Shown in pieces: positions 1,743 to 49,753 of a DNA stretch of 64,000 bases (its first letter is position 1; the number at the start of each line of letters is the position of its first letter). The position numbers and the translations under genes are program-made. The notes under the pieces were generated by a model. That model was not told the origin of the DNA, made no database searches, and saw nothing but the letters and a program-made list of their open reading frames with translations. This DNA is from Sporosarcina sp. ANT_H38 (GTDB lineage Bacteria > Bacillota > Bacilli > Bacillales_A > Planococcaceae), in NCBI RefSeq assembly GCF_008369195.1, contig NZ_VOBC01000002.1, forward strand, positions 620,001-684,000, read 5' to 3'.

Positions 1743-1939
1743 GTGATTTGGTGAATCGCCTCAATACGAAAGTGAGCATTCATTTATTGTATGAGTTTGC
1801 TTCCTAGTTAACTGGGTCCAGAGTTATCTAGCCCCTTATTATCAGTCCCAAATATCGATATTTCTCCACACTTAATTAACAGACAAGATTGAATGATCTA
1901 TTTACAATTCGCACTAAGAGTGCTATTATTTTTAAAAAT

Positions 1940-2222
1940 CAAATGCGTTGAAGAGAAGAGTAGCTAACGTTCATTCTTTGCAGAAAGCTCCGGTTGCTGA
2001 AAAGGAGTAAGAATGCGTTATCGAAACAAGTCTCTGAGCATCACTTCGGAACCAAAATGGGGGATGGAGTGACAGGAGCTCCTGTTATAGAGCCAGGGTA
2101 TACGCATCTATTTGCCGTACCTGATAAGGTTACGATGGAAACATCGTAATAAACTGGGGTGGCACCACGATTGATACAATCTCGTCCTCAAGACTTAAGG
2201 TCTTGGGGGTGGGATTTTTTTA
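1940..2222 (+). promoter_or_regulatory. T-box riboswitch, predicted glutamine (CAA) specifier
   Basis: The leader has the T-box core TGGGGTGGCACCACG (2155-2169) followed by a terminator hairpin (CTCAAGAC/GTCTTGGG, 2187-2208) and T7 at 2215-2221. Stem I shows the S-turn AGTA at 1959-1962 and GAA at 2023-2025, bracketing a helix gctaacg/cgttatc. The codon in the specifier position (GAA-A-NNN) is CAA at 2027-2029, glutamine. The UGGN bulge reads TGGC, which would pair with a G73 discriminator; tRNA-Gln carries G73, whereas Thr or Lys (alternative readings) carry A73. The same rule reads CCT correctly in the proS leader of this window. It should switch on the MFS gene at 2259 when uncharged tRNA-Gln accumulates. 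Confidence 0.85.
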
Positions 2223-2258
2223 TTGTCAAAAAAATGAATGGTAGAGGAGGAAAATCAA

Positions 2259-3503
2259 ATGAGGCTTGTGAACGTAGTGAAATCTTGGAAGTATCCTTCG
2301 ATGTTGTTAGCTGGAATTGGCATATCCAATGTGGGTGGCTGGATTTATTTAATTGCGCTTAATTTGATCATCCTTGAGAAGACAGGCTCTCCGCTTGCGG
2401 TGGCTGCCCTTTATATTCTTAAACCTTTGGCTACATTATGTACAAATTTTTGGTCCGGTAGCATGATAGACCGGTTAAATAAGCGAAATTTAATGGTCAC
2501 TCTTGACCTGTTTCGTGCGGTATTTATCGCTACCTTGCCTCTTCTTTCTTCTCTTTGGTCGATCTATCTAGTCGTTTTTGTGATTAATATAGCAAGTTCT
2601 ATGTTTGAACCGACATCCATGACTTATATTACAAAACTAATCCCCCCTAAGGATAGAAAACGGTTTAATTCATTACGCAGTTTAATCGATTCTGGAGGCT
2701 TTCTAATTGGGCCAGCTATAGCGGGATTTTTATTTATCATCGGCACACCTATTTTCGCCATCTACATGAACGCCATTGCTTTATTATTATCAGGATTAGT
2801 CACTATGATGATGCCCAACCTTGAAAGACACATACGGGTTACTAGTAAGGATGAAAAATTATCTTTTGAAGTAGTGAAGAAAGATTGGACCATTGTGTTG
2901 AGTTTTAGTCGACGCTACGCCTATGTCATGTTCATTTACTTCCTTTTTGGCTGCGTGATGGTCATGGCTACAGCCATTGACTCACTTGAAGTGGCATTTT
3001 CTAAAGAGGTCCTTTCTTTATCGGATAGTGAATATGGTTTTTTAGTCAGCATAGCAGGAGCGGGGATCGTAATGGGTGCAATTATTAATGCGATGATTGC
3101 TACTAAATCATCAACTTCTTTGCTAATTGGTTTAGGTTCCCTATTCGTTTCTGTCGGCTATATAGTTTACGCTTTTTCCACTATCTTTTTCATGGCAGCT
3201 ATTGGGTTTTTCATTCTTTCATTTTCTCTCGCCTTTGCGAATACAGGCTTCCATACATTTTACCAAAACAATATCCCTGTCAATGTAATGGGCAGAATCG
3301 CAAGTATTTACGGCTTAATTGAAGCTTTTTTAATCATACTTGCAACGATTATAGCTGGCGTGGCAGCTCAACTCATTTCTATTCAGTATGTTGTTATTGC
3401 AGGGACATTCGTGATGTTGGTGATATCCATAACACTGTTCATTTCTAACATCCACCCTTCAAGGGCAAATCTCTATTCAAATTCCTCCGTAGATCGAACA
3501 TAA
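2259..3503 (+). CDS. MFS transporter under T-box control
   Basis: 414 residues with about 12 hydrophobic helices, of the EntS/MFS_3 exporter type (VGGWIYLIALNLIILEKTGS, then the DRLNKRNLM loop between helices 2 and 3). The start was placed at 2259 because GAGGAGG at 2244-2250 lies 8 bases upstream; an earlier in-frame ATG at 2238 has no ribosome site and would overlap it. It is a single-gene unit directly behind the T-box leader, so its expression should follow tRNA charging. Families of this kind export small molecules; with a glutamine-type T-box the cargo could be an amino acid, a peptide or an analogue, but nothing in the protein identifies it. Confidence 0.88.
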   Translation: MRLVNVVKSWKYPSMLLAGIGISNVGGWIYLIALNLIILEKTGSPLAVAALYILKPLATLCTNFWSGSMIDRLNKRNLMVTLDLFRAVFIATLPLLSSLWSIYLVVFVINIASSMFEPTSMTYITKLIPPKDRKRFNSLRSLIDSGGFLIGPAIAGFLFIIGTPIFAIYMNAIALLLSGLVTMMMPNLERHIRVTSKDEKLSFEVVKKDWTIVLSFSRRYAYVMFIYFLFGCVMVMATAIDSLEVAFSKEVLSLSDSEYGFLVSIAGAGIVMGAIINAMIATKSSTSLLIGLGSLFVSVGYIVYAFSTIFFMAAIGFFILSFSLAFANTGFHTFYQNNIPVNVMGRIASIYGLIEAFLIILATIIAGVAAQLISIQYVVIAGTFVMLVISITLFISNIHPSRANLYSNSSVDRT

Positions 3504-49431: not shown

Positions 49432-49665
49432 AAAAAAGCACACAGATGTCCTTTTGTAAGGACGTCTTTGTGCTGAATAGACGTGGTACCACCTTAGTTT
49501 AGCTTAACAATAAGCCCTCTAAAACGTTTAGTAACGAAAACGACTCGGTTATGTTGGCATAACATCTCAGTGGTAGGTTTCAACAAGAAGCGGTGATATA
49601 GCTCTCAGCTAGCTGCTATATTTTCTGTTTCACAATTCTTATTTACTTTTCCACATCAAGGAATT
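49432..49665 (-). promoter_or_regulatory. T-box riboswitch of proS, proline (CCT) specifier
   Basis: Minus strand: T-box core AACTAAGGTGGTACCACG (49499-49481) followed by a terminator stem GCACAAAGACGTCC/GGACATCTGTGTGC and T6 at 49437-49432. The specifier after the S-turn GAA (49581-49579) is CCT at 49577-49575, proline. The UGGN bulge is TGGT, fitting A73 of tRNA-Pro. It raises proS expression when tRNA-Pro is uncharged. Confidence 0.93.
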
Positions 49666-49753
49666 TGTATTGTTTATAATATAACAAATACTTCAGATTC
49701 ACACAACCGCAGTGCATACAATCCGATAAAATTGCTGCCAATTCATTACTCTG

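Follow-up and report, generated by a model that had tools for sequence, protein, structure and literature searches.

In a T-box riboswitch, an uncharged tRNA bridges the specifier in Stem I and the bulge of the antiterminator, the antiterminator is thereby held, and the downstream gene is read. In the part of the TBDB account available to us, the specifiers for Lys, Glu and Gln are the least common (PMC7778990). Within the accessible portion of the survey of Wels et al. 2008, one T-box-controlled MFS gene was reported in Bacillus anthracis and assigned to Lys, the T-box-controlled BH0807 of B. halodurans was called a lysine permease, and the known T-box-controlled transporters were read as amino acid carriers (PMC2494555). 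In the legend of its Figure 6, 'Pro or Gln' has its own colour. As far as the available text goes, thrS was described as forming a T-box operon with genes for an ArsR regulator and an MFS protein in Bacillus siamensis and others, and the role of this operon is uncertain (PMC12452182). In the seen part of another study, a second isoleucyl-tRNA synthetase, IleRS2, confers mupirocin hyper-resistance by a changed HXGH motif (PMC10485003). Our literature search returned no paper on a glutamine T-box, nor on a T-box with glnS in Paenibacillus. TBDB may well hold some of the leaders described here already.

The window, i.e., the whole stretch of 64,000 nucleotides that was analysed, comes from a Sporosarcina genome and carries two T-boxes over the cut-off in the Rfam scan. 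The first is a full-length match to RF00230 at 1939-2192 (+), with 111.4 bits (cut-off 93) and an E value of 9e-24. Its membership in RF00230 follows from the coverage of model positions 1-219 and from the score above the gathering threshold. The second, at 49455-49668 (-) with 109.7 bits, is the leader of proS. In the covariance alignment, the CAA at 2027-2029 and the CCT of the proS leader share the same model positions. This is where the initial annotation had put the glutamine specifier, with a covariance fit proposed as a check, and the CCT is in keeping with its proline reading of the proS leader. The features of the locus are the following.

1901..1929 (+): candidate sigma-A promoter, TTTACA-17-TATTAT (pattern scan, 10/12 matches)
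1939..2223 (+): T-box leader with its expression platform (RF00230 at 1939-2192; terminator hairpin ending at 2216, then a U tract)
1945..2040 (+): Stem I, ends approximate (Rfam alignment; RNAalifold of 27 leaders)
2027..2029 (+): specifier codon CAA, read as Gln (Rfam alignment, relatives, spacing rule)
2155..2190 (+): antiterminator, of which CUCGUCCUC is common to it and the 5' arm of the terminator (constrained fold, -7.3 kcal/mol)
2156..2169 (+): T-box sequence GGGGTGGCACCACG (sequence, Rfam)
2160-2163 (+): UGGC bulge, able to pair with GCCA of tRNA-Gln with G73 (sequence, Rfam, tRNA G73)
2178..2216 (+): predicted intrinsic terminator hairpin, followed by a U tract (terminator scan; fold -22.0 kcal/mol)
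2245..2250 (+): AGGAGG, which we take to be the Shine-Dalgarno sequence
2259..3503 (+): MFS carrier of 414 aa, DHA3/TIGR00900-like (Pfam, NCBIfam)

The promoter candidate is weak evidence, because seven sites of this type were seen against 6.9 expected by chance. In the predicted folds, the terminator hairpin alone reached -22.0 kcal/mol and the antiterminator alternative -7.3 kcal/mol, and the two structures would be mutually exclusive. The coding start of the MFS gene is better placed at the ATG at 2259 behind AGGAGG than at 2238, the start of the mechanical ORF list, and the gene appears to be monocistronic. A hairpin of 17 counted pairs at 1705-1742 of the window, listed as terminator-like on the minus strand in the terminator scan, sits between the T-box and a gene at 1104-1427, presumably HxlR-like by reading of its protein.

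From these parts and from comparison with relatives, the MFS carrier gene is very probably controlled by a transcriptional T-box riboswitch that responds to tRNA-Gln, and on comparative grounds it is well supported that uncharged tRNA-Gln would switch the carrier on. The anticodon UUG of uncharged tRNA-Gln would pair with CAA in the specifier loop of Stem I, and its GCCA end with UGGC in the antiterminator bulge. Both pairings would hold the antiterminator and block the terminator, so that the MFS gene is transcribed. With charged tRNA-Gln, the terminator would form. We infer binding and antitermination from the known T-box mechanism, and comparison shows the architecture and specificity. The Sporosarcina genome contains gatB, and no GlnRS gene (glnS) over the cut-off was found in it by profile search. 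Therefore, tRNA-Gln is expected to receive Glu first, and the switch would probably report glutamylation of tRNA-Gln by GluRS.

The conservation of the leader was followed from the carrier gene. The closest named homologues of the MFS protein belong to Sporosarcina, and 19 of 61 genomes of this genus have a relative of at least 51% identity (two of these 19 frames, L090 and L092, contain one stop). Adding the top 80 of the 266 confirmed named loci gave 99 MFS loci, of which 98 are distinct, since L105 and L076 are one locus. The 99 loci held 88 leaders with CAA, one with GAA and one that is interrupted, and nine were without a T-box. In this count the leaders of L087, L114 and L156 were read by eye, those of L155 and L184 were taken from Rfam, and L146 was counted as CAA; L139 and L158 were scored as lacking a T-box from the pattern search alone, and the sequence upstream of the L172 match is only 569 bases long. 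CAA thus stands in 88 of 89 readable leaders, i.e., the codon that had been read from a single leader is kept in its relatives. The bulge of the 88 CAA leaders was TGGC in 80 and TGGT in eight. Each of the eight genomes with TGGT yielded one or more readable tRNA-Gln copies with G73, so UGGU needs a G.U pair there. The leader with GAA (Glu), that of Sporolactobacillus shoreae (L174), has UGGU; the Sporolactobacillus tRNA-Gln apparently has A73 and its tRNA-Glu has A73, so UGGU fits in this genus.

For structure, 27 of 29 representatives less than 80% alike were aligned, with L120 and L156 left out. The RNAalifold consensus had 65 pairs, 44 of which had both partners changed in one or more sequences, and the specifier codon was unpaired. 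In 398 Bacilli genomes, the MFS protein was found in 70 at E <= 1e-100. A geometry pattern of CAA and UGGC had 23 matches in these 398 genomes, all 23 directly upstream of an MFS match, and the backwards control gave one match; the pattern was derived from these leaders and is blind to UGGU leaders or other geometries. An earlier glutamine pattern that required TGAA missed the leader of the window, which has CGAA. Its four matches were all before MFS genes, and one of them (L236) is a distant MFS gene missed by the protein search at 1e-100.

GlnRS over the cut-off was present in 12 of the 38 genomes with an MFS leader and absent in 26. A dependence of the leader-carrier pairing on a missing GlnRS was rejected on this count, and no single charging route underlies the signal. 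The leader had no match in the phage collection, and PADLOC gave no match. A widely common neighbour was not found; the top neighbour cluster, presumably GNAT-like by reading, occurred in 11 of these 80 top-ranking named loci out of 266. At two Peribacillus loci (L130 and L136), where the MFS copy has no T-box, a c-di-AMP riboswitch lies at about 2010-2150 (-), upstream of the MFS neighbourhood.

The same leader was found before two other kinds of genes. The 12 leader genomes with GlnRS hold 13 glnS genes, and one of these has a T-box, the second glnS of Paenibacillus eucommiae (L272/L274). Its leader, with CAA and UGGU, is 78% identical over 304 bases (228 bits) to the MFS leader of P. eucommiae and reached 170 bits with the MFS leader of the window, against at most 38 bits with the other T-box loci of the Sporosarcina genome. 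A search with this glnS leader gave matches, many of them short, in 97 of 398 Bacilli genomes. Of the 30 best, eight lie before glnS (CAA, UGGU), 14 before asd (AAA, UGGU) and eight before MFS genes (CAA). The glnS coordinates of the leader matches agree with TIGR00440 matches. All nine glnS leaders found, i.e., these eight (L275-L279, L281, L282 and L285) and that of P. eucommiae, have CAA and UGGU, and a G.U pair would be needed with G73. All 14 asd leaders (L280, L283, L284, L287, L289, L292, L294-L296, L299-L301, L303 and L304) have AAA in the position of CAA. The gene asd is annotated beside the plasmid copy of the leader in Paenibacillus cellulositrophicus; in the remaining genomes we take the gene to be asd by reading. 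Relative to the glnS and MFS leaders, the asd leaders show a one-base specificity change inside one leader family. The same frame reads Gln before GlnRS and Lys before asd of the lysine pathway, and this is an independent check of the glutamine reading for the MFS gene.

The glnS genes under this leader are additional copies. All eight sampled genomes with a T-box glnS have two glnS genes over the cut-off. The T-box stands before the second, lower-scoring copy in eight of eight (653-676 bits, whereas the other copy scores 716-751 bits). Upstream of the matched start of six housekeeping glnS genes, stretches of 250 to 514 bases showed no T-box, and the shorter of these could miss one. The nine second GlnRS have HIGS in what we take to be the class I signature, whereas 19 of 19 distinct other GlnRS have HIGH (21 reads from 19 genes, with L270/L316 and L268/L320 read twice). 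The region presumed to be the KMSKS motif reads TSKR[FY] in the nine proteins. Among the 120 nearest relatives that a protein search listed, HIGS occurs in 113, HIGN in five and HLGS in one, and one was unreadable. The HIGS signature could also mean another function. No MFS gene at 1e-100 was found in the eight sampled genomes with a T-box glnS; both genes occur together in P. eucommiae only, so the two seldom co-occur. A second synthetase with a changed signature, as in IleRS2, was thus seen in other genomes and is absent from the Sporosarcina genome, which has no glnS over the cut-off.

The spread of the carrier was followed in a FastTree tree of 136 MFS proteins, midpoint-rooted, in which nine loci were set as T-box-present by eye after a pattern miss. 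The T-box label changed nine times on this tree, against a mean of 22.4 in shuffled labels, and none of 500 shuffles was as low. Five more distant MFS paralogues were without a T-box. On this tree, the leader appears to go back to the ancestor of the MFS clade, with several losses since. Sporosarcina copies were placed at several separate places, and leader and MFS gene were found together on two Peribacillus and two Priestia plasmids. In a Niallia record, the MFS gene comes with a partial leader match. The separate Sporosarcina placements and the plasmid copies fit joint horizontal transfer, and leader and carrier seem to have moved together between lineages. On plasmid pN447-3.3 of Priestia megaterium (L306), the T-box MFS gene lies near plasmid-borne thrS and ketoacyl-ACP synthase III genes, both possible spare antibiotic targets.

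The substrate of the carrier is putative. The protein passed the cut-offs of Pfam MFS_1 (110.7 bits, cut-off 33.4) and MFS_3 (62.5 bits, cut-off 27). Its best NCBIfam match, the H+ antiporter family TIGR00900 (2A0121), reached 128.2 bits and failed the cut-off of 319.6; we take DHA3 to be the name of the carrier family. By sequence, the PDB gave NorA only, and part of the carrier was covered. We consider that the carrier may export a compound that blocks tRNA-Gln charging, at a probability somewhat under even. This efflux of a charging inhibitor is favoured over uptake of Gln or Glu because the best family matches are to drug/H+ antiporters and secretion proteins, because the spread is patchy and in part on plasmids, and because the leader is akin to that of the signature-changed GlnRS. 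The presence of the MFS gene in only 19 of 61 Sporosarcina genomes, without a widely common neighbour, points the same way. Against efflux, its base is family resemblance, the score lies below the TIGR00900 cut-off, and the NorA match is partial.

Import of glutamine, glutamate or peptides of Gln or Glu, with the T-box on in starvation, is the strongest alternative, and we hold it to be a real though lesser possibility. It would give the simplest account of the regulation, since tRNA-Gln would most simply become uncharged through a shortage of Glu or Gln, and the T-box-controlled amino acid carriers in the accessible part of Wels et al. (PMC2494555) are a precedent. The family matches and the patchy, partly plasmid-borne distribution stand against import, with which they are still compatible. 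The initial annotation expected a new amino acid or analogue transporter. Its link of the T-box to an MFS carrier stands, but the proposed substrate is conjectural. Given the matches to antiporter and secretion families, and a spare GlnRS of altered signature whose gene follows a leader of this family, efflux of a charging inhibitor is at least as likely.

The conservation of one leader before the carrier and before a spare GlnRS hints at a common stress or resistance response. More specifically, Bacilli would hold a mobile, inducible response to a natural inhibitor of tRNA-Gln charging, in which the MFS carrier exports the inhibitor, the Paenibacillus HIGS GlnRS replaces the blocked enzyme, and uncharged tRNA-Gln is the alarm for both. 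The inhibitor would be one not described in the literature searched, in which we found neither an inhibitor nor resistance reported for such a HIGS GlnRS, nor self-resistance linked to glutaminyl-tRNA synthetase. This proposal as a whole is speculative, and we rate it as rather unlikely.

Some of the relatives have lost or damaged leaders. In addition to the nine of 99 loci without a T-box, Stem I of the Anoxybacillus rupiensis leader (L148) is replaced by a sequence resembling the terminal part of an OrfB (transposase) gene of a transposon, with the antiterminator and terminator still present, and the leader of L212 has no recognisable antiterminator. Degenerate boxes before MFS genes are also mentioned in a figure legend in the seen part of PMC2494555. 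These cases would agree with a relic that no longer has a regulatory role in the Sporosarcina genome. However, the copy in the window is complete and above the cut-off, and its specifier, bulge, antiterminator and terminator are all kept; a relic is therefore very improbable here.

The frame of the specifier was compared with the other T-boxes of the genome. The whole-genome scan used E <= 0.001, and 150 of 217 candidates were scored. Covariance scoring gave 30 T-box matches, 23 of them over the cut-off, and the genes behind 22 of the 29 others were named, presumptively, by reading the downstream protein. When the codon was taken 6 nt before GAG, the expected amino acid was obtained in 16 of the 22 named T-boxes. 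The six exceptions were pheS and tyrS, which need a spacing of 7, a serine leader (L012) that was anchored wrongly, two thrS leaders (L015, L026) without an anchor in the script, and hisS, which reads AAC. By ARAGORN on the tRNA stretches of the genome, tRNA-Gln(TTG) and tRNA-Asn have G73, whereas tRNA-Lys and tRNA-Thr(TGT) have A73. Among the readings shifted by one or two bases, UGGC thus fits Gln and Asn and not Lys or Thr, and the match of the bulge with G73 of tRNA-Gln had been correctly recognized at the outset. The discriminator rule is imperfect, i.e., the leuS leader (L006) has UGGC although tRNA-Leu(GAG) has A73, and by eye the trpS and L012 leaders would require G.U pairs with the discriminator base.

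Several T-boxes of this genome have unusual arrangements. Two stand in tandem before one thrS (L015 and L026, G000:C1:1250916-1251391), and a second thrS has its own T-box (L025); both genes are presumed to be thrS by reading of the protein. Two divergent T-boxes about 200 bases apart (L003 and L007, G000:C4:251245-251912) have specifiers that by eye are TTC-like and CTT.

A lysine T-box, with the specifier AA[G/A] one base further, as assigned for the B. anthracis MFS gene in 2008, can be formed from the CAAG or CAAA of the leaders, and MFS stands under Lys in Table 1 of PMC2494555, in the part available. The required spacing of 5 was right in none of the 22 named T-boxes, and UGGC is unable to pair with A73 of tRNA-Lys; the lysine frame was rejected on these grounds. 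Moreover, 88 of 89 readable leaders retain the C, and the lysine relatives before asd carry AAA in the CAA position itself. This assignment is hardly credible for the leader studied. In 84 script-scored rows, all four letters occur before CAA (A 30, C 27, G 21, T 6), and the codon is followed by G in 67, A in 16 and C in one, the C row being the misread L146. Neighbouring frames are strongly disfavoured by the varying preceding base, and the frame is fixed. A specifier shifted upstream by one base (ACA, Thr) or two (AAC, Asn) would find some support in the spacing of 7 at pheS and tyrS and in G73 of tRNA-Asn, but neither codon is conserved among the relatives; both frames were rejected on that ground, and their probability is negligible.

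The glutamine specificity first proposed for this leader is therefore upheld by the covariance fit, the conservation of CAA, the pairing of UGGC with G73, the CAA of the glnS leaders and the AAA of the asd leaders. The rarity ascribed to glutamine T-boxes agrees with the available part of the TBDB account (PMC7778990). A rare and ambiguous T-box class becomes a defined one, and the lysine reading of T-box MFS genes may need correction. One leader family, with CAA before MFS and spare GlnRS genes and AAA before asd, offers a clean natural series of specificity changes. In organisms without GlnRS, the T-box would sense tRNA-Gln with glutamylation as the signal. If the carrier does expel a charging inhibitor, tRNA-Gln charging would be the target of an antibiotic yet to be discovered, and the leader would be a ready reporter to seek it.

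Compared with described systems, the locus shares a T-box before an MFS gene with the B. anthracis case of Wels et al. 2008 (PMC2494555). It differs from that gene and from BH0807 in that both were assigned to lysine in the part of the source available; the comparison is by description. The T-box-controlled second GlnRS resembles IleRS2, in the seen part of its report (PMC10485003), as a second copy of a class I synthetase, in some cases with a changed HXGH motif. The amino acid is different, and the change is from HIGH to HIGS in the second GlnRS, whereas it is a GXHH swap in IleRS2; the likeness is best taken as a parallel, not as proof. With the T-boxes of RF00230, the leader shares Stem I, the specifier, the T-box bulge and the switch between antiterminator and terminator. 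It is set apart from them by its glutamine specificity, among the rarest in the available part of TBDB, and by its position before an MFS gene that resembles drug antiporters.
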